In this document: piece by piece, positions 492 through 59,990 of the stretch
How positions within the stretch are numbered: position 1 is the first letter of the stretch
Layout of the letters: every line of letters begins with the position of its first letter
Source of the DNA: Candidatus Brocadiaceae bacterium S225
Lineage (GTDB): Bacteria > Planctomycetota > Brocadiia > Brocadiales > Scalinduaceae
Reading direction: 5' to 3'
NCBI GenBank assembly: GCA_007859995.1
Contig: SMSL01000007.1
Coordinates: 1 to 64,000, forward strand
Length of the DNA stretch: 64,000 bases
Notes under the pieces: generated by a model
The model's input: the letters and a program-made list of their open reading frames with translations, nothing else
Databases searched by the model: none
What the model was told of the DNA's origin: nothing
Translations under genes and position numbers: made by a program

Positions 492-2195
492 TTAACTACC
501 CGACATAATCATGTCTGGCTGGATCTCATTTTGGGAGTCTTCGGTGTTTTCTTTGAAAAGATCCTGCATTCCACTGGAGGTTTTGGTGGATAATTTGGAG
601 TCAACATCTTCATAGATAATAATACCTTCAACATCCGGCAGCTTTTCTATGAGGGCCATACCCTTCTCCAATCCCAGAACAAAGACCCCGGTGGAAAGCG
701 CATCAGCTCTGGTCGCATTGTCTGTTACTATTGTTACACTGACGATGCCCTCAACGGGTTTGCCCGTTCTGGGATCGATTATGTGTGAGTATCGTTTTCC
801 TTCAACAGTAAAAAATTTCTCGTAGTCACCGGAAGTGGACACGGCTTTGTCCTTAATTTCAAACGTACCAAGGAGCCCCTCGCTCTCTCGTGGATGTTGA
901 AGCCCTATAACCCATGAATCTTTGCCGGGTGGAGTTCCAAATGTATAAATATTTCCTGCGAAGTTTATAAGCGCTGAGTTTATTCCGTTTTGTTTCAATA
1001 CTTTTGCTGCCATGTCAACCGCATAGCCCTTTCCGATCCCCCCCAGATCAATCTGTGTATCTGCATTCTTAAAGTGTACCGTCTTTACAGTTATCGGATC
1101 CTTCAAGAGTGATTTTATAGTTTTCTCTTCAATAATAATATTTTTGTAAGAAACTGATTCAAGTAAGGACGCCAATTCTTCTTTGTCGGGAATTCGCCCC
1201 TCCTTTTTAAAAAATCCCCACTTTTTCATGAGTGGGCCAATAGTAATATCAAAAGCGCCATCAGTTATTTCGCTATACTGTAAAGATTGTTCAATTACAT
1301 CAGCAAGCTCTTTATTACACTCGGCAGGTCCTGTATGGGCATCTTTGTTAAGTTCTGAAAGCACGCTCTCCTTTTTATAATTGCTCATCAGGTAATCAAG
1401 CCTGTTTGTTTCCTGGAAAACATCATTGAACGTTTTTTCGGCTATGTACTTATCAGCAGCATAGATAGTGAGCTCAAAGACGGTACCCATACTTAAGGCG
1501 GCCTTTTTAAAAAGCTTTAATTTCTGTTTCTGTCCTGTACCGTCTTCGTTGCCATACTTTATCTTTTCCAGGGAGGCAATTTTGTCAGCGCTTTTGCCGC
1601 TTAAATAAAACTCATCAATCACGGTGAGTACCTTCTTCACTCCCTTACACATGGTGACAACAGACATGGTCGCACCTGAGATATTGATGATGTCTTTATT
1701 AATTCGTATTTTGTTTTTAAGTGACTTGCCTTTAAACTGGTAAAGGAATCTCTTCTTCGCAATCTCCGAACCTCTGCTTTCCCTGTAAACGAGAACAGCT
1801 ATCTTGTCGATCTTGCCCTTCAGATCTACTGATACTACGAATGTATAAGGATGAAATTTGCCGATCTCTTCAGTGATTATTGCATATCCCGTTACCTCGC
1901 CTGATTTCATACCCATATAGACAACAAAAAAATCTTCATAGATTTTCCTTTTCAGCTTGTTTTGAAGTTGACTCTTTTCCTCTTTTGTAAGGGGTATTAC
2001 ATTGAAGACAATTTCATCACAATGGGGAAACACCTCACGTAATGCCTGTTCTTCTGTCAAATAAACCTGAGATATATAATTGCCTGTTTGCTTCTCGTCA
2101 GGAACTGCCTGTGCACAGCACGGGGGTACAATCTCAAATACCAGTGCCAGTATTAATACTATTGTTGAATAAGCGCTTGCATTTTTTATTTTCAT
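492..2195 (-). CDS. apbE: exported FMN-binding domain / ApbE flavin transferase fusion
   Basis: A 567-residue exported flavoprotein. Residues 1-30 form a signal peptide ending AQA. Residues about 45-195 are an FMN_bind domain as in NqrC/RnfG/NosR, with the flavinylation motif SGATMS at 173-178, where S178 is the expected FMN attachment residue. Residues about 229-520 are an ApbE FAD:protein FMN transferase domain, with MGT at 236-238, DLGGIGKGYA at 383-392, GDYEKFF at 456-462, HIIDPRTG at 471-478 and DNATRADAL at 492-500. ApbE enzymes move FMN from FAD onto a Ser/Thr of partner proteins using Mg2+. Here enzyme and acceptor are one chain, so it probably flavinylates itself or a sister copy in the periplasm. 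It follows the lipoprotein gene by a few bases and shares its promoter. The electron donor and acceptor are not visible; ferric or extracellular electron transfer is a guess. Confidence 0.9.
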   Translation of the reverse strand: MKIKNASAYSTIVLILALVFEIVPPCCAQAVPDEKQTGNYISQVYLTEEQALREVFPHCDEIVFNVIPLTKEEKSQLQNKLKRKIYEDFFVVYMGMKSGEVTGYAIITEEIGKFHPYTFVVSVDLKGKIDKIAVLVYRESRGSEIAKKRFLYQFKGKSLKNKIRINKDIINISGATMSVVTMCKGVKKVLTVIDEFYLSGKSADKIASLEKIKYGNEDGTGQKQKLKLFKKAALSMGTVFELTIYAADKYIAEKTFNDVFQETNRLDYLMSNYKKESVLSELNKDAHTGPAECNKELADVIEQSLQYSEITDGAFDITIGPLMKKWGFFKKEGRIPDKEELASLLESVSYKNIIIEEKTIKSLLKDPITVKTVHFKNADTQIDLGGIGKGYAVDMAAKVLKQNGINSALINFAGNIYTFGTPPGKDSWVIGLQHPRESEGLLGTFEIKDKAVSTSGDYEKFFTVEGKRYSHIIDPRTGKPVEGIVSVTIVTDNATRADALSTGVFVLGLEKGMALIEKLPDVEGIIIYEDVDSKLSTKTSSGMQDLFKENTEDSQNEIQPDMIMSGS

Positions 2196-2202
2196 GAGTT
2201 TC

Positions 2203-2697
2203 TTAGCCTTCTTCCAGGAGCTCTTCAGTTCTCCTTAATACCTCTTCTTCTATCTCTCCAGTAGATTTCACCCTCTCCCATCTGTATGCCGCACTGCCCC
2301 CCCTGGGTTTTTGCTGGAGTTGGCATCTTACCGTTACGGAACTTGCCATAATATTACCGGAAATAGTGATGGTAAGTTTATACCTTTCTTTCCAGTAATC
2401 TTCCAGAAATCGATCCGTTATTGCGCTCCTGGCTTTTCTTGTTTGTGAATAACCTTGAACCCAACCGGTTTTAATGATGCCCTTCTCCTTATCAATTTTG
2501 TCCAACGGCATATTTCCAAGCGCCATGATAACGGTTGCCCATACATGTTCAAAGTCATCATTGAAAGTCCTGGTATCTTTAGGTAATTGTGCATGGGTCA
2601 CGCCGTAATCAGACCGGTAGCTTGAAGAACAACCGAACAGAGAGCATCCAGTTAAAAAAGACAGCGAAATTATCAAAAATATTTTTGTATTAGACAT
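2203..2697 (-). CDS. outer-membrane lipoprotein, BamC-like fold
   Basis: A lipoprotein of about 164 residues. The lipobox LTGC puts the lipidated Cys at residue 18. The body has the pattern of BamC/NlpB-like helix-grip domains: FEHVWATVIMAL, then DKIDKEKGIIKTGW, then the strand RYKLTITISG. I use the ATG at 2697. A longer frame reaches a TTG at 2718, but that codon lies inside the operator palindrome at 2708-2718 and would be untranslated. It is the first gene of a two-gene operon with the FMN/ApbE fusion and may anchor that system at the outer membrane. The BamC resemblance is weak and no Bam role is implied. Confidence 0.7.
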   Translation of the reverse strand: MSNTKIFLIISLSFLTGCSLFGCSSSYRSDYGVTHAQLPKDTRTFNDDFEHVWATVIMALGNMPLDKIDKEKGIIKTGWVQGYSQTRKARSAITDRFLEDYWKERYKLTITISGNIMASSVTVRCQLQQKPRGGSAAYRWERVKSTGEIEEEVLRRTEELLEEG

Positions 2698-2707
2698 AGT
2701 GTTGCAA

Positions 2708-2761
2708 TTGAGTCTCAAGTTCTAATGGATTATAGTAACAAAGATTAACCGTTTTTGTCAA
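2708..2761 (-). promoter_or_regulatory. promoter and palindromic operator of the lipoprotein-apbE operon
   Basis: On the minus strand TTGACA (2756-2761) and TTACTA (2733-2738) are 17 bp apart. TATAAT also occurs at 2729-2734, but with a 21-bp spacer. The palindrome TTGAGACTCAA (2708-2718) lies about 15 bp past the -10. It contains one complete TTGAGACT half-site of the motif repeated upstream of the neighbouring operons. A protein bound here would block early elongation or initiation. Confidence 0.55.
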
Positions 2762-2829
2762 GCAATTATTGGGATTTGAGTGCAGTTAAAGGTTCGGCAG
2801 AATTGGATATACAAAATCAGATGGCGATA

Positions 2830-3033
2830 AAGAGGAATGGGTGCACTGTGAAAGGAGAAGGAGAAACATCAGTGCACCCATTGTGTAATTTATTTAAGAA
2901 TCATCAAACGTTGTAGTATTGTTAACATGCGGAATATTCAATTTGTTCCTATAATTTTTTTATTATTACCTAAATTGAACAATTCTATTTTTTAGATTAT
3001 GATAATCGCATACTTTAGTCTGCGTTTCTCAAC
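2830..3033. repeat. 204-bp direct repeat, copy 1
   Basis: Nearly identical to 3817-4020 and of the same length. It holds a perfect 10-bp inverted repeat, GGGTGCACTG (2839-2848) and CAGTGCACCC (2870-2879), whose loop contains the purine-rich, Shine-Dalgarno-like AAAGGAGAAGGAGAA. It fills most of the 381-bp gap 2719-3099 and ends about 65 bp before the stop of the DUF2325 gene. It may be an RNA structure or a small mobile repeat. No gene is visible in this copy. Confidence 0.75.
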
Positions 3034-3099
3034 ATCCGATGGGTGTATGTGAAGTTCTCGTAAGTTACCCAACATTAGGATGCGGCTACCGCGCTCAAT

Positions 3100-3387
3100 T
3101 TAATTATCTGTTAGACGAGTGGGTAATTTTTTGTATATCGATGACCATGATCGTTTTGCAAAGACAATGGGAATATTGCACTCCTTAGCCTGTTTCTTGG
3201 TTACATTTGCCAGATTGTGGTTAACATAATCATGCAGTACAATTATCAGATCCATTGTCATCGGCATGCCTCTCCTGATAACATTTCTATTCCTGCCGCT
3301 CATATGCCTGATATCGTCTACGCCGATTTTTTTAAGTTCCTTTGGTATACTGCCAAGGTGATCTCCACCAACTATCAATACTGACAT
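3100..3387 (-). CDS. DUF2325 protein, copy 1
   Basis: A 95-residue protein resembling the DUF2325 family: VLIVGGDHLGSIP at the N terminus, then DLIIVLHDYVNH, then IPIVFAKRSWSSIYKKL. The fold suggests a small alpha/beta nucleotide- or ligand-binding domain; the function is unknown. I start at the ATG at 3387, preceded by GGAGGGG at good spacing. A TTG 15 bases upstream overlaps that ribosome binding site. It is co-directional with and just downstream of the winged-helix gene. The pair is repeated at 5169-5707, and the copies differ mainly near residues 65-75 and at the C terminus. Confidence 0.75.
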   Translation of the reverse strand: MSVLIVGGDHLGSIPKELKKIGVDDIRHMSGRNRNVIRRGMPMTMDLIIVLHDYVNHNLANVTKKQAKECNIPIVFAKRSWSSIYKKLPTRLTDN

Positions 3388-3431
3388 TTTGTTCCCCTCC
3401 AATGTAAAGGTAAAAGGCTAACTACTGCTGA

Positions 3432-3638
3432 TTAATTGCAAAGCCTTATCTTTTTACTCCATCCCGATTTCGTTATGGATATTTTGCCATCTTTTGCCAG
3501 CTCGCCAATGCCCTGATAAAAGAGTGATTTTTCCATTCTCAGCAAAGATCTTAGTTTGCGAAGCATCATCTCTCCATTTGCATGAAGGCGAATCCAGATA
3601 ATATCTGCTGCTACCTCTACTTGTGATTCAAATTCCAT
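3432..3638 (-). CDS. small winged-helix protein (DUF2582-like), copy 1
   Basis: A 68-residue protein with the pattern of the DUF2582-type winged helix: DIIWIRLHANGEMMLRKL, then LFYQGIGELAKDGKI, then a wing ending KIRLCN. AGGAGG precedes the ATG by a good distance. Proteins of this family are small DNA-binding candidates of unknown target. It heads a two-gene unit with the DUF2325 gene and carries operator site B upstream. It could in principle be an autoregulator that reads that site, but this is untested. Confidence 0.7.
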   Translation of the reverse strand: MEFESQVEVAADIIWIRLHANGEMMLRKLRSLLRMEKSLFYQGIGELAKDGKISITKSGWSKKIRLCN

Positions 3639-3714
3639 ATGAAACCTCCTGCTTCATTCAAATTAGAAAATAGTTTTGTATGTTCATTAAATACAAATCC
3701 AACCAAGCCAGTAA

Positions 3715-3731
3715 TTCAGACTCAGTCTCGA
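3715..3731. promoter_or_regulatory. operator site B upstream of winged-helix/DUF2325 copy 1
   Basis: On the plus strand TTCAGACTCAGTCTCGA matches the TTGAGACTnAGTCTCAA consensus except at two outer bases. On the minus strand a run of eight T ends about 8 bp upstream, preceded by AACACTATA. The same arrangement precedes sites C, D and E. The rest of the 610-bp gap 3639-4248 holds repeat copy 2 and remnants of the duplicated cassette. Confidence 0.6.
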
Positions 3732-3816
3732 TATCAGTAAAAAAAATATAGTGTTATGCTAAAACACTATTCCTTCCTCCTTTTTGGTGCAGTTAGGCAC
3801 AAGAACAGGAGACAAT

Positions 3817-4020
3817 AAGAGGAATGGGTGCACTGTGAAAGGAGAAGGAGAAAATGTCAGTGCACCCATTGTGTAATTTATTTAAAAATCTTCAAACGTT
3901 GTAGTATTGTTAACATGCGAAATATTCAATTTGTTCCTATAATTTTTTATTATTATCTAAATTGAACGATTTTATTTTCTAGGTTATGGTAGCAGTAGAC
4001 CTTGGTCTGCGTTTCTCAAC
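3817..4020. repeat. 204-bp direct repeat, copy 2
   Basis: Second copy of the repeat at 2830-3033. The inverted repeat arms are at 3826-3835 and 3858-3867. One inserted base creates an ATG at 3854 after the loop GGAGAAGGAG, opening a 16-codon frame to 3904. In copy 1 the same place reads ATC, so the mini-frame is not conserved and the RNA or DNA structure is more likely the functional part. The two copies bracket the first winged-helix/DUF2325 pair. Confidence 0.75.
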
Positions 4021-4248
4021 CTGAAATCTCCTGGTTAATAAAAATATTAGTAAGTTTAAATTAAAAGTAATAAACAGCGATTGGCTAAAACCGGTGATTT
4101 TTTACAGGTCCTTTAAAGATACAATAGACTCCTTCTCCTTATTCAGGAATTAATAGAAACTTTCAATTATGTTTTCTGCCCAGCCCCGCACCGGACTTTT
4201 TTCAATAATAATCTGCAAATTACAAGCGAGGTTTATTTACAAACACAT
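4021..4248. repeat. remnant of duplicated cassette with internal deletion
   Basis: Bases about 4021-4123 match 5705-5807 (start of the second winged-helix gene's leader through the end of the 176-codon gene), and about 4142-4248 match the region just after the intact receiver gene (about 6315-6420). The intervening exported-protein gene present at 5776-6297 is missing here. This shows that the 3.1-4.5 kb block is a decayed copy of the 5.2-6.8 kb block. Confidence 0.7.
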
Positions 4249-4473
4249 TTAAAAAACTTTACTTTCACATACCTTGTCTTCCAGGCAGTATTTGATCAAT
4301 TCACAAAAATCACAATCATCAATAGTCTTTGCTATTACCGCGTTTACACCTAGAGGCTTTGTATCGTCAGACTCAACAGGCAGATAGTCAGAACTCATTA
4401 ATATAATAGGGACCTTAATAATACTATTTATCCTTTTTATTACTTCAAGGCCATTCATTTCAGGCATGTTCAA
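4249..4473 (-). pseudogene. 5'-truncated response-regulator receiver gene
   Basis: The frame encodes 74 residues matching the last 73 or so residues of the intact receiver protein at 6421-6801, from MPEMNG to the identical end CLEDKVCESKVF. The phospho-acceptor Asp and the whole first half of the receiver fold are absent. Homology to the intact gene stops at about 4471 and is replaced by the repeat element at about 4471-4567. It cannot work as a receiver. Confidence 0.8.
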
Positions 4474-4490
4474 TTTATTGTTTAAAAGCT

Positions 4491-4567
4491 GTCATTCCCG
4501 CATTCTTTTAGCGGGAATCTAGGATGAACAGGCCCTTAGATACCCGATAAAGGCGTTCGGGTATGAC
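4491..4567. repeat. MITE-like palindromic repeat, copy A
   Basis: Starts GTCATTCCCG and ends CGGGTATGAC, a 10-bp terminal inverted repeat with one mismatch, and contains the inner hairpin CCCGC...GCGGG. It is about 85% identical by eye to 49879-49956 in this window. Weaker homology extends left to about 4471, the exact point where the truncated receiver gene breaks off. Confidence 0.7.
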
Positions 4568-4577
4568 AAAAGCCGCA

Positions 4578-4943
4578 TTAGCCAATCTTTGCCTTAACCT
4601 CCTCCATTAGCGCTTCTGTGATAGAAGTTTTATCAAGAAATACTAGATTTGGATCAATCTCTCTTAAGCTTTTGTAAGGACGGAGAGAGATATCAGTCGT
4701 CAATATAAAAGGAATATCTTTGTATTCAGGCATACTCTTTAAGTGCAGGAAAAGTGTATCACCGGTCATCATGTTAAGGGTTATATCAGTAATAATTAGA
4801 TCGGGCCTCTTCTCATTCAATCTTGACAACGCTTCGTATCCGTCGTAGACATTGATCATGTCATAACTTGAACCCCTCAACATTTTCGCATAGAGATCAT
4901 GGAAATATTGTTCATCGTCTACGATCATTACTGTTTTCCTCAT
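4578..4943 (-). CDS. receiver-only response regulator
   Basis: A 121-residue CheY-like protein made of a single receiver domain: acidic pair D9-D10 in IVDDE, phospho-acceptor D53 in ITD, T82/T83 and K105. No output domain is present, so it probably acts by protein contact or in a phosphorelay. No histidine kinase is found in the window. It lies in the accessory block and has operator site C upstream. It is clearly divergent from the other receiver (6421-6801), so it is not part of the same duplication. Confidence 0.88.
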   Translation of the reverse strand: MRKTVMIVDDEQYFHDLYAKMLRGSSYDMINVYDGYEALSRLNEKRPDLIITDITLNMMTGDTLFLHLKSMPEYKDIPFILTTDISLRPYKSLREIDPNLVFLDKTSITEALMEEVKAKIG

Positions 4944-5028
4944 TATCGTATCTCCCGGTCCGCTTCAATTAGAAAATGATTTTGCGTTCCTATTAAATAC
5001 AAATTCAACCTGAAAATTTAGCAGGCGA

Positions 5029-5045
5029 ATGAGACCCAGTCTCAT
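5029..5045. promoter_or_regulatory. operator site C upstream of receiver gene
   Basis: ATGAGACCCAGTCTCAT is an almost perfect 7-1-7 palindrome. On the minus strand it is preceded by the block AACACTAGATTTTTTTAAC shared with site B. The start of the receiver gene is about 85 bp further on. The remaining bases to 5168 show nothing else recognisable. Confidence 0.6.
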
Positions 5046-5168
5046 GATTAAGTTAAAAAAATCTAGTGTTATGTTAAAATAATATTTCTTCTATTTGATA
5101 TTACCGTCATAAAAATATGGTCGGGGCCTGTTTTCAGTAGCCTCATGTTTCTTCAAAATAAATTCCGG

Positions 5169-5456
5169 TTAATTATTGGTTAAACTATCTGGTAATTTTT
5201 TGTATATCGATGACCATGATCGTTTTGCAAAGACAACGGGAATATTACATTCCTGCGCCTGTTTCTTGGTTACCTGCATGAGATTGTGGTTAACATAATC
5301 ATGCAATACAATTATCAGGTCCATTGTCATCGGCATGCCTCTCCTGATAACATTTCTATTCCTGCCGCTCATATGCCTGATATCGTCTACGCCGATTTTT
5401 TTTAGTTCCTTTGGTATACTGCCAAGGTGATCTCCGCCAACTATCAATACTGACAT
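5169..5456 (-). CDS. DUF2325 protein, copy 2
   Basis: Second copy of the 95-residue DUF2325 protein, about 90% identical to the one at 3100-3387, with VLIVGGDHLGSIP, MDLIIVLHDYVNHNL and FAKRSWSSIYKKL conserved. Most changes are conservative, which suggests that both copies are or recently were under selection. It starts at the ATG after GGAGGGG and follows the winged-helix gene copy 2. This block keeps the complete cassette order: receiver, exported protein, winged helix, DUF2325 (reading along the minus strand). Confidence 0.75.
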   Translation of the reverse strand: MSVLIVGGDHLGSIPKELKKIGVDDIRHMSGRNRNVIRRGMPMTMDLIIVLHDYVNHNLMQVTKKQAQECNIPVVFAKRSWSSIYKKLPDSLTNN

Positions 5457-5500
5457 TTTGTTCCCCTCCAATGTAAAGGTAAAAGGCTAACTACTGCTGA

Positions 5501-5707
5501 TTAATTGCAAAGCCTTATCTTTTTACTCCATCCCGATTTTGTTATGGATATCTTGCCATCTTTTACCAGCCAGCCAATGCCCTGATAAAAGAGTGATTTT
5601 TCCATTCTCAGCAAAGATCTTAGTTTGCGAAGCATCATCTCTCCATTTGCATGGAGGCGAATCCAGATAATATCTGCCGCTACTTCTACTTGTGTCGTAA
5701 ATTCCAT
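5501..5707 (-). CDS. small winged-helix protein (DUF2582-like), copy 2
   Basis: A 68-residue copy of the protein at 3432-3638, differing at only a few positions (for example ESQ to TTQ near the N terminus and GELA to GWLV). The recognition-helix region LRSLLRMEKSLFYQGIG is unchanged, so DNA specificity should be the same. CAGGAGG lies upstream of the start. Its leader is joined to the exported-protein gene rather than to an operator palindrome, so in this copy transcription probably comes from the receiver gene promoter. Confidence 0.7.
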   Translation of the reverse strand: MEFTTQVEVAADIIWIRLHANGEMMLRKLRSLLRMEKSLFYQGIGWLVKDGKISITKSGWSKKIRLCN

Positions 5708-5775
5708 CTGAAACCTCCTGGTTGATAAAAAAATTATATTGAAGTTTAAAATTAAAAGTAATAAACAGCGATTGG

Positions 5776-6297
5776 CTAAAGCCGCTGATTTTTTACAGGT
5801 CCTTTATATCCTGTTGGTGTACTATCGTGTCCATGTTGTGAACATATAAGGTTTAGGCGGCTGTTAATCAAGTTGAGCCTTTGGTTAAAGCCTGTCTCTA
5901 TCTCTCCCTGGCCGTATGTTTTTGCTCCTGAAACGGCATGCGCATTTGGGGACTGAGGATGTCTTTTTGCAAGACCATTAAAGAAGTTGATTGCCCGGCC
6001 AGCTTCTCCATATTGTCGTGTCAGGCCGATATATCTCTTGCAGATATCGCCGAAGGCCTTGTTGTCTAATTTCCGCTCCATGCATTTCTCAAGCATTGCA
6101 AGGTCTCCATTCAAGTGTTTATCTTTTGGAGAAGCCGCCTTTTTTGTAGAATTTTTTTCTGTGCATCCGCCAGAAAGGATTTTAACCGCCTCTTCCCCAT
6201 CTTCAGTTTTTCTCAACATCGGTTCATCTGCATGGGAAACGGATGTAAAAACGAATGAAAAGAGAAACAAAATAGCTATAAATATTTTTAAAGACAT
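5776..6297 (-). CDS. exported TPR-like protein of unknown function
   Basis: About 173 residues. A signal peptide (IFIAILFLFSFVF, cleavage after SHA) is followed by a Lys-rich linker and a helical part, FGDICKRYIGLTRQYGEAGR then FFNGLAKRHPQSPNAH, which looks like a tetratricopeptide pair. I use the ATG at 6297, eight bases after AAGGAGG; a GTG 9 bases upstream sits inside that site. The last 35 residues lack helix pattern and may reflect a frameshifted end. It is present in this cassette copy only and deleted from the other. Confidence 0.6.
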   Translation of the reverse strand: MSLKIFIAILFLFSFVFTSVSHADEPMLRKTEDGEEAVKILSGGCTEKNSTKKAASPKDKHLNGDLAMLEKCMERKLDNKAFGDICKRYIGLTRQYGEAGRAINFFNGLAKRHPQSPNAHAVSGAKTYGQGEIETGFNQRLNLINSRLNLICSQHGHDSTPTGYKGPVKNQRL

Positions 6298-6420
6298 ATA
6301 CTTCACCTCCTTACCCAGAAATTAATAGAAACTTTCAATTATGTTTTCTGCCCAGCCCCGCACCGGACTTTTTTCAATAATAATCTGCAAATTACAAGCG
6401 AGGTTTATTTACAAACACAT

Positions 6421-6801
6421 TTAAAAAACTTTACTTTCACATACCTTGTCTTCCAGGCAGTATTTGACTAATTCGCAAAAATCATAGTCACCAATTGTCT
6501 TTGAAATTACGGCATTTACACCCATAAGTTTTACATCGTCAGGCTTAACCGGCAGATAATCAGAGCTCATTAAAATAATAGGGACTTTTATAATATTATT
6601 TATCCTTTTGATTACATCAAGTCCGTTCATTTCAGGCATGTTGAGATCTGTTATTACAAGATCAAAATGTTTCCTCATGGATAATATTATGCCTATAGCA
6701 CCATTATTTGCGGTAGTTACACGATAACCTTCATCCATTAATAGCTGTTTAAATGTTTTAAGAATCTCTTCATTGTCATCTATGATCAGTACGTTTTTCA
6801 T
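6421..6801 (-). CDS. receiver-only response regulator (intact copy)
   Basis: A 126-residue CheY-like protein: D8-D9 in IIDDN, phospho-acceptor D52 in ITDLNMPEMNG, S79/S80 and K101. The frame is open 64 codons further upstream, but the ATG at 6801 is the right start because the receiver fold begins there, GGAAA precedes it, and operator site D lies between 6833 and 6849. It heads the duplicated cassette; its truncated sister is at 4249-4473. It has no output domain. Confidence 0.88.
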   Translation of the reverse strand: MKNVLIIDDNEEILKTFKQLLMDEGYRVTTANNGAIGIILSMRKHFDLVITDLNMPEMNGLDVIKRINNIIKVPIILMSSDYLPVKPDDVKLMGVNAVISKTIGDYDFCELVKYCLEDKVCESKVF

Positions 6802-6832
6802 CTTATAATTTCCTTTCTTATTATTTATGCAA

Positions 6833-6849
6833 TTAAGACTCAGTCTCAA
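6833..6849. promoter_or_regulatory. operator site D upstream of receiver cassette
   Basis: TTAAGACTCAGTCTCAA matches the shared consensus at all but one position. On the minus strand GATATTTTTTTAGGCTTATA precedes it, the same T-run layout as at sites B, C and E. A possible promoter TTGATA-17-TACTAA lies further upstream near 6930-6955. Confidence 0.6.
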
Positions 6850-6962
6850 TATAAGCCTAAAAAAATATCTTACTTCGTCTCTTGATTTCACGGTGAAAAA
6901 CACGGTTAGTTCTTCTGTAGTATTAGTATTGTGCGTATTATTGTATATCAATAACTGAGGCC

Positions 6963-7000
6963 GATGCGTTATACGGGGAGGTGTATAACGCATCTTTTTT
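6963..7000 (+). terminator. plus-strand intrinsic terminator hairpin
   Basis: A perfect 12-bp inverted repeat, GATGCGTTATAC (6963-6974) and GTATAACGCATC (6983-6994), is followed by six T on the plus strand only. No plus-strand gene lies to its left. On the minus strand, where the flanking genes lie, there is no T-run. It may end a short antisense RNA over the receiver leader, or be an RNA structure in the porin 3' region. Confidence 0.6.
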
Positions 7001-7074
7001 CGCCTCTGTCCGACACTTCAAACAAAATGGACTCTTTTGATACCTCAGTCATACTTACTTATACAAAATTCAGC

Positions 7075-8493
7075 TTAAAAATATGTGGCTACTGAGAAGA
7101 TTAAAGAATTATTGCTGACTTCAGCGTCATCTAATGATCGGTCTGACTCCCAGTTCATCTGATATTCGGCCTTGAATACTGTATCTTCGGTGTACCTGAA
7201 GTTAATACCGGGCGTTAAGCGTGTTTGTCTTAGATCAGCGGAGCCAGGAGTCGGTCGATTAATATCAATCCCTCCCAGCCTGACAACACCTGTAAAGGTG
7301 GAGTTATCCGTAAAAAAAGTAGGGGCAATGTCCTTAAGGAATTGTGGCATAAAATGATATCTCGGTTCAACGTAATATCCCCACATATCACCGTTATATT
7401 TATCACTATTGGGAGTAACAGCGTCAAAATTTCCATCTCTCTCTATTGATGCGTGCGCATACTCTCCAACCAGTTCAAATGCGCCGCGCTGATACGTCCA
7501 GTCAACCGCCTTGATTGTCATCCTGTTACTACTGTGCTCATCAATATTTCCCGTGTGAGCGGAAAGCCCTACCTCCAGTCCAAGAAAAGGGCTATACGCA
7601 ACACGCCCGACAATTGCCGGGTTCCTGTTGTTGTCATCCTGCTGGCTTCCCCTTGAATCCCTTATAAAGTTTAGTCCACCATCGGCGGCAGTGCCTGCAT
7701 CTTCGACAGAAAAACCATTTACCGCGTAGATCTCATAGTCAAGCTTTGATGTTTCTGAAGGATAAAATGTACCGAAGAAACCCATTCCCGACTCACTGAG
7801 GGTTGTAGGTATGATCCTTGTACTTACCATAGGCCTCTCTGTCAGGTCCTGGAGGGGCGAGTCGTGGACAAGGTTGAACTTGCCGAGAGGAGACAAGATT
7901 ATACCTCCACGGTAATTCAGCCAATCCGTCATGAGGAAATCGATTGTTGCAAATTCTATCTTTATTTCTCCACTTTTTTCTTGAATACCACCTGAGCCAT
8001 CAGGTCCCCCATGCTCAATCTCTATTTCCGTAGCAAACTTTACCCTGTCGGATACATCGGAATAGATGAAAGGTATGAGGCGGTGCTGGTCAAACGAGTG
8101 TTCGCCATTCTCTGTAAATACAAGCTCATGGTCCATATATCCACCTATATAGGTATTCCTTCCGAATCTGCGCAAAAATGATTTTCCATATTGGTTGCCA
8201 AATACCGGTGCAAGACCCTTATCTACAAGTTCCTGAGATTTTTTAGTCCAATAGAAATCATCAGACGGAGCATCTGGTGCAGAGATGTTTTTTATCTCAT
8301 CTCTCATGGCCTTGAGTTCATTGGTGGCTTTTGTCTGCTCTTTGAGTTGCCCTTTCAGCTCATTGAGCATCTTTTCCATCTTTTCAACCTTTGATTCCAG
8401 GTCGTCATTTGACCCTTGCCCGTATACGCCAGGGCATACGGCGGTGAAAAACAGGGCAACTAAACAGAGAAACATAATAGTATACTTCTTCAT
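7075..8493 (-). CDS. outer-membrane porin (OprO/OprP-like)
   Basis: 472 residues: signal peptide ending near VYGQ, then a coiled coil at about 30-70 (ESKVEKMEKMLNELKGQLKEQ), then a long beta-barrel with alternating polar/apolar strands ending in the typical C-terminal aromatic (SVATYF). The region IGGYMDHELVFTENG..FDQHRLIPFIYSD resembles porins of the phosphate-selective OprO/OprP or carbohydrate type. AAAGGAG precedes the ATG. Three copies of the regional operator lie in the 450-bp upstream gap. The substrate cannot be told from sequence. The coiled coil may tether the trimer to the cell wall. Confidence 0.8.
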   Translation of the reverse strand: MKKYTIMFLCLVALFFTAVCPGVYGQGSNDDLESKVEKMEKMLNELKGQLKEQTKATNELKAMRDEIKNISAPDAPSDDFYWTKKSQELVDKGLAPVFGNQYGKSFLRRFGRNTYIGGYMDHELVFTENGEHSFDQHRLIPFIYSDVSDRVKFATEIEIEHGGPDGSGGIQEKSGEIKIEFATIDFLMTDWLNYRGGIILSPLGKFNLVHDSPLQDLTERPMVSTRIIPTTLSESGMGFFGTFYPSETSKLDYEIYAVNGFSVEDAGTAADGGLNFIRDSRGSQQDDNNRNPAIVGRVAYSPFLGLEVGLSAHTGNIDEHSSNRMTIKAVDWTYQRGAFELVGEYAHASIERDGNFDAVTPNSDKYNGDMWGYYVEPRYHFMPQFLKDIAPTFFTDNSTFTGVVRLGGIDINRPTPGSADLRQTRLTPGINFRYTEDTVFKAEYQMNWESDRSLDDAEVSNNSLIFSVATYF

Positions 8494-8536
8494 AAAACAC
8501 TCCTTTCAAAGCACTTAAAATAATTATAAGCTTATA

Positions 8537-8553
8537 CTGAGTCTCATTCTCAG
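8537..8553. promoter_or_regulatory. operator site E, porin-proximal
   Basis: On the minus strand CTGAGAATGAGACTCAG, a weaker match (12 of 16 consensus positions) that is itself near-palindromic. It is again preceded at 10 bp by a run of seven T and CTATA, as at sites B-D. It lies 44 bp before the porin start. Confidence 0.5.
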
Positions 8554-8634
8554 CATAATGTTAAAAAAATATAGTTTTTTTGTCTTTATTGTTAGCAAAA
8601 AGACAAGTAATGCATTTTAAACCCACTCTATTAA

Positions 8635-8645
8635 TTGAGACTCAA
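8635..8645. promoter_or_regulatory. operator site F (half-overlapped palindrome)
   Basis: TTGAGACTCAA, the same shorter palindrome as at 2708-2718, located about 100 bp downstream of promoter G on the porin leader. The interval 8836-8900 further right holds a degenerate relative of the GTCAT...GCGGGAAT repeat and no gene. Confidence 0.5.
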
Positions 8646-8745
8646 GTTCAGTAGAATTCGAAAAAAATGGTGATTTTGTTTTAATCCTCATGGAAAAACT
8701 GAGTGTCGTGCGTCGTCAAGGATAACAAACACAAACCACCTTTTT

Positions 8746-8798
8746 TTGAGACTGAGTCTCAATTTAAAAGATTTTATCTGTTTAGTTTTAAATGTCAA
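8746..8798 (-). promoter_or_regulatory. porin promoter with perfect operator (site G)
   Basis: On the minus strand TTGACA (8793-8798) and TAAAAT (8771-8776) are separated by 16 bp. Eight bases after the -10 the perfect 17-bp palindrome TTGAGACTGAGTCTCAA (8746-8762) would cover about +2 to +18. The layout is the same as at 12950-13001 upstream of the heme-porin operon. It predicts repression by steric block. Confidence 0.7.
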
Positions 8799-8944
8799 TA
8801 ATTTTTTTGTGTTATATTAAAATTTTTTTTAAATGCTCCGCCGCTGTCATTTCTGCAGTCTGTAGAGCGGGAATTCAGGATGAATGGATTTCAGATTGAT
8901 ACGTCGAAATGTCATTCTGATTGAGGTGGGGCGGAATGAAGAAT

Positions 8945-9838
8945 CTAATTTATCGTTCTTATATTTGTTTCTCTGTCAAAAACGCGGCTAATCTCTCCCG
9001 TCTCTACAAAGAAGTCAGGTTCCATCTTTACGCTCCTGATCCAGGATGATTCGTGAGGTGGCTTCCAGTATAGCTTGTATCCTCCCGGAGTTACTCTATC
9101 AAACGAATAGTGCCCATTTTCATCGGTAACCGTTTCAAAATGAACTCCTTCTCGATGTGAACTAAACAATCCCCATTTCTCTAACAATGTTATTTTTACC
9201 TGACATCCCGGTAATGTTTTGCCCTTGTGCAGCATTCGGCCCGATACCTTGCCATAGTTCTTCGCTTCAAATATGTCCTCTTTTATCTGTTGTTTCTTCT
9301 CAAATTCGAGCGTTAAATTTTCTTTAATTTTTTCTTCAATTTGATACTCATCTTTCTCCTTTTTTCTTTCAAGTGCATACATTAATTCATCTTTTATCTG
9401 CTCTTTCAACTTCTCAGTGTCAACTGTAGCACTCCGACTCTCTTCCCTATGTAAATCAAAGTCATCTCTTCGTTTACTGCACATATCATGCTCACTATCA
9501 GGAAAGTCTATTTGTAATGCCGTGACCTTCTCTCTGGGAATCCGCAAGGTTATACTTGCGGGACTTTTAGTTATTTCTCCTATCTTACAAATTATACTTT
9601 TTTCTTTATCATTAACTCTTATGAAAACCGTATCCGGGTATTTGTTATCCCGCTTAGACTGAACATTTATTGATCCAATCAGCCTTTTTGGAAAGACAGC
9701 CTTAACATACTCATCGTTCATTTCAAGGATTTTTACACTAATCTTTTCTCCAAAATCTTCCACCGTCAAGGTATCAGCACATAACTTTGTAGATATTGTC
9801 AAAAGTAACATTATTAAAACACAAACGGTTTTATACAT
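8945..9838 (-). CDS. exported protein with carboxypeptidase-regulatory-like domain
   Basis: 297 residues. A signal peptide (VCVLIMLLLTIS, cleavage near LCA) is followed by a beta-rich domain at about 22-110, a charged coiled coil at about 130-190 (EKLKEQIKDELMYALERKKEKDEYQ), and a C-terminal CarboxypepD_reg-like beta-sandwich at about 196-280 with GKVSGRML, GCQVKITLLEKWG, TDENGHYSFDRVTPGGYKLYW. Such sandwich domains bind surfaces or partner proteins. It has no catalytic motif. AAAGGAGA precedes the ATG. It lies downstream of the cupredoxin gene, which carries the same type of C-terminal sandwich. Confidence 0.65.
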   Translation of the reverse strand: MYKTVCVLIMLLLTISTKLCADTLTVEDFGEKISVKILEMNDEYVKAVFPKRLIGSINVQSKRDNKYPDTVFIRVNDKEKSIICKIGEITKSPASITLRIPREKVTALQIDFPDSEHDMCSKRRDDFDLHREESRSATVDTEKLKEQIKDELMYALERKKEKDEYQIEEKIKENLTLEFEKKQQIKEDIFEAKNYGKVSGRMLHKGKTLPGCQVKITLLEKWGLFSSHREGVHFETVTDENGHYSFDRVTPGGYKLYWKPPHESSWIRSVKMEPDFFVETGEISRVFDRETNIRTIN

Positions 9839-9922
9839 CTTTTATTCTCCTTTTTATTAAATTGACAAGGCTTGGATTTTTCGGGTAAGTACATGCATAG
9901 GAAATTCAATATTGACATAAAT

Positions 9923-10005
9923 AAGGGTGGATTAAGCGGTAGCGAATCCACCTTTAATCGTGATATATTATTGGTGGATTCGTCCTTCGTCCTTAATCCA
10001 CCCTT
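9923..10005. repeat. imperfect inverted repeat (REP/MITE-like)
   Basis: Left arm 9923-9952 (AAGGGTGGATTAAG...CGAATCCACC) and right arm 9973-10005 are inverted copies with a small internal difference. Elements with GGTGGATTCG...TTAATCCACC arms are common dispersed palindromes in many genomes. It lies between two co-directional genes and could fold in the mRNA. Confidence 0.7.
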
Positions 10006-10081
10006 ACGCTAATATCAAAAAAATAGTCGATGGGTTTTTGTCTTTTAAAAACCTGCCTAACTTGGTATTTGTTAATTGCAT

Positions 10082-10777
10082 CTACTTTCGCTTCTTCATC
10101 AAAAAACTCACATCTACTGTCTTCCCACCTTCAACTTTCACTTCCTGTTCCACAGACCTCAGTTTCTCATGCCATGTCTTCAACCTATATGCACCGGGAG
10201 GAACATTTTCAATTCTGAAACTTCCATCCTTTTCTGTAACACCAAAATACGGGTTATCCAATACCACAACATATGCGGACATCTCAGCATGTACGTTGCA
10301 GAGAAGTGGTATTTCGCACGACTCGTTGAATGTTACAGGTTTTGAAGCTCCGATATCATACGTTCCCAGATTAAACTGAGTGCAACAGTCAGGAGTAGAA
10401 AACACATTATGCCTGACCAGATCACTGTTTGGGAAATCGATTGTTGTGCCTTTCTGAACGGCTATTACGTGTGGCAGAAAAACCAGGTTTAACTGGTCAA
10501 CTACTCCGTGTTCCGTTGGCGGGTCATAGTTGTTGTCTCCTACTTTTTCAATATAGACAATAGCATCACCTGAATGTCTTACTCTACTGCATTTTACTTT
10601 GCCGGTGATTATTCCGGGATTTTCTACTGTAACGTCTGGCCTTATCTCCCTCTTTAAATTCTGCATGGCCTTTCGCAACTTTTCCTGCATATTTTCAGAC
10701 CCATCCTGAGCTCTCAGATTTGTCGCAAGCAGAAACAGTGCTAAAAAAGCAAGTACTGTTAAACATAAATTTCGCAT
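10082..10777 (-). CDS. periplasmic cupredoxin with C-terminal carboxypeptidase-regulatory domain
   Basis: 231 residues. Signal peptide ending LRAQ, a short helical linker (28-45), then a plastocyanin-like domain at about 55-172 with the type-1 copper ligand pattern H123 (LVRHNVF) plus C160-x2-H163-x2-M166 (LLCNVHAEM). A small beta-sandwich follows at 175-228 (GVTEKDGSFRIENVPPGAYRLKTW). Proteins of this layout are often labelled methylamine utilization or plastocyanin-like. It probably carries electrons or copper in the periplasm. AAAGGAGA precedes the start. It is downstream of the heme-porin gene under the same operator-controlled promoter. Confidence 0.85.
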   Translation of the reverse strand: MRNLCLTVLAFLALFLLATNLRAQDGSENMQEKLRKAMQNLKREIRPDVTVENPGIITGKVKCSRVRHSGDAIVYIEKVGDNNYDPPTEHGVVDQLNLVFLPHVIAVQKGTTIDFPNSDLVRHNVFSTPDCCTQFNLGTYDIGASKPVTFNESCEIPLLCNVHAEMSAYVVVLDNPYFGVTEKDGSFRIENVPPGAYRLKTWHEKLRSVEQEVKVEGGKTVDVSFLMKKRK

Positions 10778-10865
10778 AATTTCAAATCTCCTTTTCCTGT
10801 CATATATAAGCTAAAAAACAGACATAATCCAAACCCCATATAATATAAACCTTCAGCAACAAATG

Positions 10866-10922
10866 GCAGAAACCCGGATCTTAATGCACCTGGGGAGGTT
10901 TAAGTTTGACCCGGGCTTCTGC
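10866..10922. terminator. inverted repeat between heme-porin and cupredoxin genes
   Basis: GCAGAAACCCGG (10866-10877) pairs with CCGGGCTTCTGC (10911-10922), one mismatch, with a loop of about 33 nt. On the minus strand it lies just after the heme-porin stop and is followed by only a weak T stretch. It could attenuate transcription or protect the 3' end between the two genes. Confidence 0.45.
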
Positions 10923-10973
10923 TCATCAACACGGTAATGCAATTTCATAATATGCACCACCTGTTACTGATAT

Positions 10974-12536
10974 TTAGAAAGCAATATCTACTCCAAGCCT
11001 GTACGTAGTATCCATAAAGCCTCCAAGATCAACTCTGCCTGCCTCCGCACCGTCAGTACCTGTTTCAGCATCTCCATAATCGGACCAGTGTGCACCGGCA
11101 AATACCTTGAAATTTGCCCTGGCTACGACTGTGGTATCAAAAGAGTATTTCGTAAATGAGGATATATCCCTTACATCATAGTCAGGGTTGACATTTTCAA
11201 CTCTGACGGCAGGTATAAGCCACGGCAGGACGATGCACTGCAACTCTGCTGTGTAAATAGATGTGTGAAATGATGAGCCTGACTCCTGGGCTAAATTAGA
11301 TCCAAATGTGCCTGCCCCGTAAGTTATCGTACCTTTAATATCGTCCTCCATAAAAGATGCGGCTCCTATAAAGTTAAAATTACGCCAGTTTGCATCAATA
11401 AGGACACCGAAACGTTCAAACCTGTTAGCTTCAGAATCAAAGGTACCACCGTCAACCGGGTTGCCAAAAGCGCCTGTAACCGGGTCATCAATAAATGCAC
11501 CTGTTACACCTCGATAATAATAACCTTTGATTCTGACCGAATCGTCACGCCAATTCTCTTTTGCTGCCAGCGAATCGTCTACAGACTCTTCACCAAGGAC
11601 ACCCATGCCCCATAACTTATATGAAACTGTTACATACCAGTCTTTACTCTTATTTATCTCACCTCCCCAAATAGCACCATTATTGTCTGTCACATTAGTC
11701 AGTATGGTGCCCATATCACCTGAGCCATCGAACAGTTCAAGACCTTCGCCCGTTTCGCCGTTTACGATGCCTGCTGCCCATTCAAGACCGCCTCTGCCTC
11801 CCGGACCATTCCAACTTCCCCAAATCTCTATACCATTCTGGCCCGGATGAAATCCAAAAAAATTACCGGCTGATACCGTAGGCATGACATCCATCATGTA
11901 GGTTGATAATGAAAGCTGTTTCCTGTGACTGGACATGGGAGTTCCACGCATATCCAACCTTCCAAATCTAAAATTAAAGTGCCCCTGCTCTCCAAACAGG
12001 AAAGGCGCATAATTCACATATGCCCTCTCCAGCTCATCTATCGAACCGGCGCCAAAGAATGATAAAGTTTCTCCAAATGTTCCTCCAATAAGTACCTCAA
12101 GAGACTCTATACCCGCAAAAGCAGTATCTTGTGATCTTTCCGGTCTTCCAGGATCTCCTCCCCTTGGGTTGTGCGGCCTTTCACTGGTAATCGAGAGATC
12201 AGACACCATCTTAAAGCCGATAGCCGGCAGGTGAGGTATTGATCCCGGCCATACAGCCTTCGGGAACAATTTTGACCATGCGGAGGCTCCCATTTTTACG
12301 GGCTCTTCCTTTACAAAGACCTCATCACCACCTCCCGGCATCCTTAGACCATTAGCGTAGAATGCCCTGCCAAATGCGTTGAGCTTGGGAAATGTCCCCC
12401 AGTGGCAGGTTGTACACGCTGTCTTATATTTCCTGGCAAATGGAGGGATCGCCTGTGAATCCGTTGGAAAAGCGGCAAACAACATTCCCACTAGAGAAAA
12501 GACTGCAAAACCCATTGATAAAAAACTCTTTTTCAT
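10974..12536 (-). CDS. one-heme outer-membrane beta-barrel protein
   Basis: 520 residues. Signal peptide (FSLVGMLFAAF, cleavage near SQA), then a c-type heme motif C41-x2-C44-H45 in ACTTCHWG, followed by PKLNAFGRAFYANGLRM, then about 430 residues of predicted beta-barrel ending in VDIAF. An N-terminal CxxCH plug joined to a barrel suggests a porin-cytochrome in one chain that could carry electrons across or at the outer membrane. Similar proteins occur in anammox and nitrite-oxidising bacteria. The methionine-type sixth heme ligand is not obvious. AAGGAG precedes the ATG. Its leader is about 430 nt from the promoter at 12974-13001. Confidence 0.8.
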   Translation of the reverse strand: MKKSFLSMGFAVFSLVGMLFAAFPTDSQAIPPFARKYKTACTTCHWGTFPKLNAFGRAFYANGLRMPGGGDEVFVKEEPVKMGASAWSKLFPKAVWPGSIPHLPAIGFKMVSDLSITSERPHNPRGGDPGRPERSQDTAFAGIESLEVLIGGTFGETLSFFGAGSIDELERAYVNYAPFLFGEQGHFNFRFGRLDMRGTPMSSHRKQLSLSTYMMDVMPTVSAGNFFGFHPGQNGIEIWGSWNGPGGRGGLEWAAGIVNGETGEGLELFDGSGDMGTILTNVTDNNGAIWGGEINKSKDWYVTVSYKLWGMGVLGEESVDDSLAAKENWRDDSVRIKGYYYRGVTGAFIDDPVTGAFGNPVDGGTFDSEANRFERFGVLIDANWRNFNFIGAASFMEDDIKGTITYGAGTFGSNLAQESGSSFHTSIYTAELQCIVLPWLIPAVRVENVNPDYDVRDISSFTKYSFDTTVVARANFKVFAGAHWSDYGDAETGTDGAEAGRVDLGGFMDTTYRLGVDIAF

Positions 12537-12746
12537 TTTTTACTGCTCCTTTCTTTTTTCAAAAATAGTCAACTCAACTTAGAGGCGTACTGTGGCGGTA
12601 GTGTGTACAAAGCCCGGTACGCCCACCCGTAAAATCTTTCTGAAACAGACAAGATTCATTAACAGCATTGAGGGCTCTCAGAATGGCCCCACGCAATGCA
12701 CTACTAACACGCGGTGATCGCATCTAAGCCTGATTGCTATTGCCAA

Positions 12747-12774
12747 TTGACTTGAAAAAAGCAGTCGTTATAAT
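12747..12774 (+). promoter_or_regulatory. promoter of candidate sRNA
   Basis: TTGACT (12747-12752) and TATAAT (12769-12774) with a 16-bp spacer on the plus strand. The predicted start near 12781 leads straight into a structured stretch and then the terminator at 12836-12880, with no open frame between. Confidence 0.6.
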
Positions 12775-12780
12775 GAAAAA

Positions 12781-12880
12781 AGGCCAAATGCGAAGAGGGG
12801 GGCGTATACGTCACCTCTCCCGCGTTTCCGTGCCGGGCTATCAGTTAGAGCTTGCCGAGCGAAGCTGATAGCCTTTTTTT
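12781..12880 (+). ncRNA. candidate 100-nt antisense/small RNA
   Basis: The transcript expected from the promoter at 12747-12774 has two stems. AAATGCG (12786-12792) can pair with CGCGTTT (12821-12827) around an inner AGAGG/CCTCT pair, and GGCTATCAG (12836-12844) pairs with CTGATAGCC (12865-12873) followed by seven T. No riboswitch or known sRNA family is recognised. It is transcribed opposite to the leader of the heme-porin mRNA and fully complementary to it, so a cis-antisense role is plausible. Confidence 0.55.
12836..12880 (+). terminator. intrinsic terminator of candidate sRNA
   Basis: A perfect 9-bp stem GGCTATCAG/CTGATAGCC, loop of 20 nt that can itself pair partly (GAGCTT/AAGC), then TTTTTTT. 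This is a strong Rho-independent terminator on the plus strand. Confidence 0.8.
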
Positions 12881-12894
12881 ATTGAAAAGAGCGA

Positions 12895-12911
12895 TTGAGA
12901 CTCTTTCTCAG
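12895..12911. promoter_or_regulatory. operator site H (secondary)
   Basis: TTGAGACTCTTTCTCAG matches the shared consensus at about 13 of 16 positions. It lies 39 bp inside the leader from site I, which suggests two-site binding or looping, similar to the multiple sites in front of the porin. Confidence 0.45.
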
Positions 12912-12949
12912 ATATTAAACAAAATTTTTTAAATCTCTGCCTGCGGTCA

Positions 12950-13001
12950 TTGAGACCAAGTCTCAACCGTCGCATTTTATGATACTTTTGATTAATGTCA
13001 A
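12950..13001 (-). promoter_or_regulatory. heme-porin operon promoter with operator (site I)
   Basis: On the minus strand TTGACA (12996-13001) and TAAAAT (12974-12979) are 16 bp apart, and seven bases later comes the palindrome TTGAGACTTGGTCTCAA (12950-12966). The same -35, -10, spacer and operator distance occur at 8746-8798, which strongly suggests shared control of the two porin operons. Confidence 0.7.
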
Positions 13002-52769: not shown

Positions 52770-52928
52770 AAAAAAAGCCTCTTCTTAATCACAAGATAAG
52801 AAGGGGCTCCGCGACATTCTTATCTTATCTTCCCCTAGCAGGTAGGAGTTAGCACCGATATCCTGACATTCCGCCAGGATCGGTTGCTGTGGTTTCTCAG
52901 GGCCATTCCCTCCACCACTCTTGATAAG
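52770..52928 (-). promoter_or_regulatory. SAM-I (S-box) riboswitch with terminator
   Basis: Minus-strand aptamer at about 52824-52928: P1 CTTATCAAGAG...GGGGAAGATAAG, with the conserved GGTGGAGGGAATGGCCC, GAAACCACAGCAACC and GGTGCTAACTCC segments of the SAM-I family. Downstream the terminator AGCCCCTTCTTA...TAAGAAGAGGCT followed by TTTTTTT (52770-52808) competes with an anti-terminator using AGATAAGAA. High SAM should stop transcription before the threonine-synthase-like gene. SAM riboswitches control methionine and SAM genes. Confidence 0.95.
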
Positions 52929-53010
52929 CTACAATTTTCGAGCAGGTATTCTAGTTAAAATTTAGTTTAAAGTCAATAAATATTATGTAATAAGGGACTA
53001 TTATCAACTC

Positions 53011-59331: not shown

Positions 59332-59990
59332 TTTGATTGTTTTAGATATTAGTTATCTGGGTTCCAGCCAGACAACATCATAAAAAAGCTGTGCAGACAT
59401 ATTTTTCTCCATAGACGGTATGGCCTTTGATGTTTGTTCATCGTATTAAGAAGGAAAGCCTGGTTAAGATCTTTTCGCGAAAGCCGCACGGTATCTCTAA
59501 ATGGTTTTTTTGATAATCAGGCTCTCTGCTATGAATAAGCCTAAATCCATCATATCTCCTTTTTCCGATTAGAGTGTCTGTCATTCTCAATTTCCCATTT
59601 GCAGGTTAAGAAGGCGCACTTTTCAATTTAATCTGTCAAAATACATGCCATAATCAGGAACCGTTATTAAAAATTAAAAATAAACAGCCTAATGCCGCCT
59701 ACACTTAAGTACATATAACAATTTGCCTTATGGCTATTCCCAAATTGTATTATTATACTGATATTATTAGACGCGTCCATATTAAATCGAAAAAAATGTT
59801 TAATATCTCTACATCTAAACTTATGTTTAGGAATTTCAAAATTGACATAAATATTGTAGGATTAGAGTTAAGAGAAAAAAGAATGATTACCGGGAAAGAA
59901 AAAGTTAGAATGAATGGAAAAGAATGTGAAAAAACGTTAAAGGGCAGTTTCGATATAATGTCCATGTCATTTTCATGTCAGGCTTGGTAG
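59332..59990. other. long gap without convincing gene
   Basis: About 660 bases. A plus-strand frame (59730-59990) of 86 codons ends one base before the next gene but has no recognisable domain or strong ribosome binding site. No structured RNA or repeat stood out. It contains the divergent promoter region for pfk and the release-factor-like gene. Confidence 0.45.

Follow-up and report, generated by a model that had tools for sequence, protein, structure and literature searches.

Which regulator, if any, would read the family of short palindromes that lies among surface and redox genes at the start of contig SMSL01000007.1 of Candidatus Brocadiaceae bacterium S225, a marine anammox planctomycete of the Scalinduaceae (Brocadiales)? 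The window analyzed here is the first 64,000 nucleotides of this contig, which belongs to an assembly that is 79% complete. A sequence-only reading of the window had listed nine related 7-1-7 palindromes and proposed that they define a Fur-like regulon. Judged from sequence comparisons, the nine sites are very probably bound by Fur, the ferric uptake regulator, as operators in the Brocadiales form of its box, and the set would serve iron supply.

The pattern TTGAGACTNAGTCTCAA, with up to three mismatches, matches seven times in the window, always within 2702-12966, for an expectation of 0.35; none of 100 shuffled windows gave seven matches. The two other sites, 8537-8553 (15.7 bits) and 8635-8651 (14.6 bits), are weaker, yet they were detected by an independently trained matrix. 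This symmetric matrix was built solely from feoB sites of other genomes, with none from the window genome. On it the window sites score 14.6 to 27.1 bits, and the best position elsewhere in the 64 kb reaches 10.2 bits, at 59510. The nine palindromes are thus real and confined to one part of the window, as had been stated. Two spans are corrected: 2708-2718 and 8635-8645 are half-sites of genuine sites at 2702-2718 and 8635-8651. The reversed window gave no match of at least 10 bits. Column-permuted matrices, some of which are still similar to the original, gave a mean of 2.4 and a maximum of 7 matches at the 10-bit threshold, versus 11 with the real matrix. The sites, none of which is assigned a strand, are as follows.

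2702-2718, putative Fur box 1, TTGCAATTGAGTCTCAA; 18.4 bits; 4 bp 5′ of the lipoprotein ATG (2697)
3715-3731, putative Fur box 2; 16.3 bits; 5′ of the winged-helix/DUF2325 genes
5029-5045, putative Fur box 3; 17.6 bits; 5′ of receiver gene 1
6833-6849, putative Fur box 4; 21.6 bits; 5′ of receiver gene 2
8537-8553, putative Fur box 5; 15.7 bits; 44 bp 5′ of the porin ATG
8635-8651, putative Fur box 6; 14.6 bits; imperfect, one good half
8746-8762, putative Fur box 7; 27.1 bits; perfect palindrome
12895-12911, putative Fur box 8; 16.4 bits; in the cyc2-like leader, about 25 bp from the terminator of an RNA element
12950-12966, putative Fur box 9; 19.0 bits

Across the window genome, four sites with at most two mismatches were found, all in the window cluster, compared to none for the reversed-pattern control. 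The scatter over random genome positions that had been named as an argument against a regulon was not seen. At three mismatches, the 2.96 Mb draft holds five further sites outside the cluster versus nine for the control. Box-like matches beyond the window, on contigs C1, C2, C3, C4, C6, C7, C15 and C18, are mostly intragenic. The only plausible intergenic ones are C4:82163 (15.2 bits) and C2:172322 (16.0 bits), and their adjoining genes have no clear iron role.

In many relatives the FeoB_C domain is preceded by the box at a distance of about 1.9 kb, which places the box at the start of feoB. It is present, with up to three mismatches, in 40 of 54 Brocadiales feoB upstream regions, compared to a mean of 0.2 and a maximum of 1 in 40 sets of shuffles. 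The gene-aligned feoB box is TTGAGACTCAKTWTCAA, and its near-invariant half-site letters, A.T.TCA, agree with ATTATCA, the canonical half-site of Fur, at each of these positions. The base content had been described as different from that of Fur boxes; this does not hold, since the canonical ATTATCA is contained in the half-site AKTNTCAA. On the box matrix, 18.4 bits are obtained for the canonical Fur site of E. coli, a score reached by a fraction of 0.0004 of random palindromes. By comparison, the PerR box (TTATAATnATTATAA-type repeat) scores 1.7 bits and the DtxR/IdeR box (TTAGGTTAGSCTAACCTAA-type repeat) -25.2 bits, each as a consensus sequence. PerR and DtxR were rejected as binders on this measure of box similarity, and the proposed Fur type of the sites is borne out. 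The footprinted operator core of Magnetospirillum MgFur at feoAB1 scores 11.1 bits (random-palindrome fraction of 0.0025). The MgFur footprint contains the core TCGCAACTCATTCGCAA (PMC4506495), which equals TTGAGACTCATTATCAA at 12 of 17 positions, the central ACTCATT among them; Fur is therefore known to accept an ACT half-site.

The Brocadiales box, TTGAGACT-N-AKTNTCAA, is by its sequence a lineage variant of the Fur box, and its copies are putative Fur operators. It shares with the Fur boxes and regulons of E. coli, Pseudomonas and Magnetospirillum (feoAB1) the 7-1-7 inverted repeat, a half-site compatible with ATTATCA, feoB as a target, an operator over the promoter (predicted here) and a Fur protein with conserved Lys, Tyr and Arg readers. 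However, the left half of the Brocadiales box is usually TTGAGACT, with G and C in place of the T and A of E. coli, the targets include a Cyc2-like protein as well as receiver and DUF2325 genes, and feoB is followed by a DtxR-family gene. In an outgroup genome of the same class (G293) a box lies directly 5′ of a fur-feoB operon (L337), with no DtxR match nearby, and boxes are likewise present upstream of two divergent fur paralogs, the furC genes of G014 and G002. Other Planctomycetota are enriched in the box too: in the 20 genomes of one other family (f28), strand-matches summed by hand amount to 151, versus 17 for the reversed-pattern control. A literature search for an anammox Fur box, for TGAGACT in Fur binding and for Scalindua with FeoB found nothing relevant.

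A Fur-family protein is encoded in 36 of 37 near-complete genomes. The structures nearest to FurA of the window genome are the Fur proteins of Campylobacter, Magnetospirillum and Helicobacter. FurA keeps the DNA-reading Lys, Tyr and Arg named for Fur in PMC4506495, the Arg being present in 31 of 31 FurA loci. The main fur gene carries no box within 400 bp upstream, and a reading with autoregulation was dropped.

The genes associated with the boxes are listed below.

492-2195, minus strand, FMN_bind-ApbE fusion protein (flavin transferase); Pfam ApbE 6e-91, FMN_bind 5e-7
2203-2697, minus strand, lipoprotein, DUF3576; Pfam 4e-8
3100-3387, minus strand, DUF2325 protein (second copy at 5169-5456); Pfam 2.5e-16
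3432-3638, minus strand, small winged-helix protein (DUF2582-like); Pfam 9e-5, slightly below the curated cut-off
4578-4943, minus strand, single-domain response-regulator receiver; Pfam 7e-13
6421-6801, minus strand, single-domain response-regulator receiver 2; from translation and tblastn orthologs
7075-8493, minus strand, OprP/OprO-type porin with an N-terminal coiled coil; AlphaFold pTM 0.60, Foldseek best matches OprP and OprO
8945-9838, minus strand, secreted carboxypeptidase-regulatory-like protein; weak Pfam matches
10082-10777, minus strand, cupredoxin-like protein with a CarboxypepD_reg domain; Pfam, with Copper-bind at 8e-4, slightly below the cut-off
10974-12536, minus strand, Cyc2-like fused monoheme cytochrome-porin ("heme-porin"); Cyc2 signature, 520 aa, 16 predicted strands

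For the porin encoded at 7075-8493, all but one of 28 orthologs from the whole order (27 of 28) have the box, for an expectation of 0.2. By this comparison of sequences the porin is a core member of the putative regulon and the order-wide partner of feoB; its model folds like OprP/OprO with moderate confidence. An outer-membrane porin and FeoB also act together in iron supply in E. coli, with OmpC and Feo (PMC7315122), as would be the case here. However, the E. coli link runs via EnvZ/OmpR, whereas the Brocadiales porin and feoB promoters both carry the Fur box. In distant genera, too, the box lies upstream of DUF2325 and receiver orthologs; it precedes DUF2325 orthologs in G038, G039 and G040 and receiver orthologs in G004 and G014, where box 4 is kept. 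It is also found 5′ of apbE orthologs in G006, G007 and G012. Absence of the site before orthologous genes of relatives, the other argument raised against a regulon, was thus not seen for the porin, DUF2325 and receiver genes. Together with the boxes before feoB and the outgroup fur-feoB operon, these orthologs support the proposed Fur-like regulon. It does not extend evenly over the genes first listed: the porin belongs to the core, while the boxes of the cyc2-like and lipoprotein-apbE genes are limited to part of the order, as either later recruits or losses. Control by copper or oxygen finds no support here. On one contig of G008 the order is VIT1-like gene, box, cyc2-like gene, cupredoxin, multiheme cytochrome, OprB porin, box, feoB and DtxR gene. 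Window positions 2830-6600 form a diverged segmental duplication in which the DUF2325/winged-helix genes, the receiver and non-coding flanks occur twice with 83-100% identity, and 4249-4473 resembles a truncated receiver copy.

The two best minus-strand promoter matches lie at 8798-8771 and 13001-12974, each TTGACA-16-TAAAAT with 11 of 12 positions matched; their -10 elements are 8 bp 5′ of box 7 and 7 bp 5′ of box 9, respectively, and the 32 promoter-like matches between 2.4 and 13.2 kb equal the number that chance alone gives. Box 1 starts 13 bp 3′ of a predicted -10 (promoter 2761-2732, minus strand). The feoB boxes of relatives have -10-like hexamers about 7-10 bp 5′ of the box. On these predicted promoters, the boxes would be operators over a core promoter, and their position just 3′ of the -10, over the predicted start site, suggests a repressor. 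In the model that we infer for binding, repression, the iron response and the protein roles, iron-loaded Fur dimers would bind where transcription of the minus-strand units starts and so keep these units silent. Upon iron shortage Fur would leave, and the OprP/OprO-type porin, the receiver and DUF2325 proteins, the flavin-binding ApbE lipoprotein unit and the Cyc2-family cytochrome-porin with its cupredoxin would be made. The porin would admit iron, FeoB would import it, and, in lineages that have recruited it, the Cyc2-like protein would transfer electrons at the cell surface, either to iron or from it. As the same box precedes the ferrous importer gene feoB in relatives, iron supply is the most likely job of the set.

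The Cyc2-like protein carries AIPPFARKY, CTTCH and, four residues later, PKL (AIPPFARKYKTACTTCHWGTFPKL). The published Cyc2 identifiers are AXPXFAR[QK][TY] before CXXCH, with PXL four residues after (PMC8406198). In 26 homologs the motifs are nearly invariant. The predicted model has 16 strands at a moderate mean pLDDT of 66, and its best Foldseek matches include 2o4v and 4rjw/4rjx (OprP/OprO). At 520 aa and with this predicted barrel, the protein has the length of at least 365 aa and the 16-strand OprP/OprO-like barrel expected of Cyc2, and by signature it belongs to the Cyc2 family. It shares AXPXFAR[QK][TY], a single CXXCH, PXL four residues later and a predicted 16-strand OprP/OprO-like barrel in more than 365 aa with Cyc2 of Mariprofundus, Gallionellaceae and Acidithiobacillus. 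Unlike these, it is found in an anammox planctomycete, under a putative Fur box. A search against PDB sequences gave no match. With tblastn, the family aligned to the Mariprofundus ferrooxydans PV-1 record (L310) over the N-terminal 132 residues only, at 34%. Close relatives have large multiheme cytochrome genes (L172 9751-12747, L194 3002-7455) between the cupredoxin gene and the counterpart of the gene at 8945. Brocadiales-like contigs with cyc2-like genes (L242, L243, L244 and L249) also occur in metagenome-assembled genomes labelled Alphaproteobacteria or Dehalococcoidia, probably through binning contamination.

Several observations weigh against Fur operators set for iron supply. Neither feoB nor a DtxR-family regulator was detected in the 79%-complete window genome, and because both genes are missing from this assembly the feoB link rests on relatives. 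Of 24 cyc2-like homologs, only 6 are preceded by a box, and for the lipoprotein-apbE genes the count is 7 of 24. Fur was undetected in five draft genomes, about as many as incompleteness predicts. Furthermore, in most relatives feoB is immediately followed by the DtxR-family gene, an arrangement that would fit an autoregulated operon too. This feoB-adjacent regulator (Fe_dep_repr_C and FeoA domains), rather than Fur, could thus own the boxes: its gene is present in 37 of 37 near-complete genomes, and four drafts of family f2 have the feoB box and no Fur match. However, the DtxR/IdeR consensus scores far below zero on the box matrix, the outgroup box precedes fur-feoB away from any DtxR match, and in G057 the DtxR gene and feoB lie on different contigs, yet the box is kept at feoB. 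The feoB-linked gene (L172 3878-4537, and the feoB loci of most relatives) encodes a FeoA domain with no Pfam match to the usual N-terminal DNA-binding domain, and the DtxR proteins of the closest relative likewise have no Pfam match to that domain. We consider operators of this regulator unlikely. Far less probable still is that duplication of the locus spread the palindromes as repeated DNA that has no meaning for regulation. Diverged tandem duplications do occur here (300-nt copies, 89-93% identity), but the duplicated repeats do not include the boxes, and the genes that the box precedes in diverged genomes differ and are unrelated, so the conservation tests already contradict this explanation.

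A different question is what Fur would control. The cluster may serve surface electron transfer for energy, by Fe(II) oxidation or metal respiration, and be tuned by iron rather than built for its uptake. The complete Cyc2 signature fits this, as do the operons of relatives, in which genes for a multiheme cytochrome and for a diheme-cytochrome/EB_dh protein are retained; nitrate-dependent iron oxidation has been reported for Scalindua enrichments, as cited in PMC10732223. However, induction by iron shortage is easier to reconcile with uptake than with growth on iron, the partners seen across the order are feoB and the porin and not cytochromes, and the window lacks the multiheme gene, with only 243 bp between 9838 and 10082. 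An energy role is a serious minority possibility.

The leader of the cyc2-like gene holds a further element on the opposite strand.

12747-12774, plus strand, sigma-70 promoter TTGACT-16-TATAAT of the RNA candidate; 11/12 match
12775-12880, plus strand, candidate small RNA with an intrinsic terminator; z -4.56; covariation; 8 genomes

The approximately 340 bp of intergenic DNA from box 8 to the cyc2-like gene are 89-90% identical to G008 and G012, whereas at the protein level the cyc2-like product and its G012 counterpart share only 64% identity. The RNA candidate, of about 100 nt, folds at -47 kcal/mol and ends in a hairpin and U-run. Two-sided changes occur in five pairs, a count reached by 3 of 500 shuffles, and sliding the partners destroys the pairing; this support is moderate, since only eight sequences were available and the structure was derived from the same alignment. 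The alignment holds 33 G.U cells to 4 A.C cells, which favours the plus strand, and a minus-strand leader or riboswitch is disfavoured on the same count. The promoter is kept in the eight sequences compared, the copies beside furC included. A covariance model found one copy in each of eight Scalinduaceae genomes, all in Fur-box loci: five beside cyc2-like genes, two beside furC and one 5′ of a CETCH gene next to DUF2325 (G006). In this last locus (L408 1470-1649) the box and RNA element precede a CETCH heme-motif gene that replaces the cyc2-like gene, and the RNA promoter is lost. The box starts 24-26 bp past the terminator core in G000, G008, G012, G010 and G002, and in a similar place in G006; G004 has a weak box near the RNA, and G014 has a degraded near box, with a strong one 193 bp away. 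No Rfam match was found in the leader region up to E = 1. An ordinary SAM riboswitch lies at 52822-52930 on the minus strand of the window.

The RNA candidate is convergent with the putatively Fur-controlled promoter. No Fur box lies over its own promoter (12747-12774), the boxes being 3′ of the terminator. Like the Fur-linked small RNAs RyhB and PrrF, the candidate is structured, ends in an intrinsic terminator and lies in a presumably iron-regulated locus. It differs from them in the place of the putative Fur box, which follows the RNA gene on its 3′ side and covers the promoter of the opposite strand, and in having no Rfam match. Our best guess is that it acts antisense on the leader.

Anammox bacteria need much iron for heme proteins, and our literature search found no account of how their iron uptake is regulated. 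New here are a porin that accompanies feoB throughout the order, a Cyc2-like protein whose gene has a putative Fur box in some lineages of the order, and a small-RNA candidate linked to it. The analysis yields a usable Fur box matrix for Brocadiales and adds an RNA candidate outside Rfam. Elsewhere, Cyc2-family cytochrome-porins are iron oxidases for energy. In Scalindua, we tentatively suggest, such a protein under Fur, together with the cupredoxin, the flavin-bearing ApbE protein and the porin, might alter the redox state of surface iron for uptake by FeoB, with the convergent small RNA as a second layer of iron control; this is a rather doubtful proposal. A Cyc2-like protein, often taken as a sign of iron-oxidising energy metabolism, is tied here to an iron-regulation signal. 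If this is true, metagenomic claims of iron oxidation made from cyc2 alone would need care.

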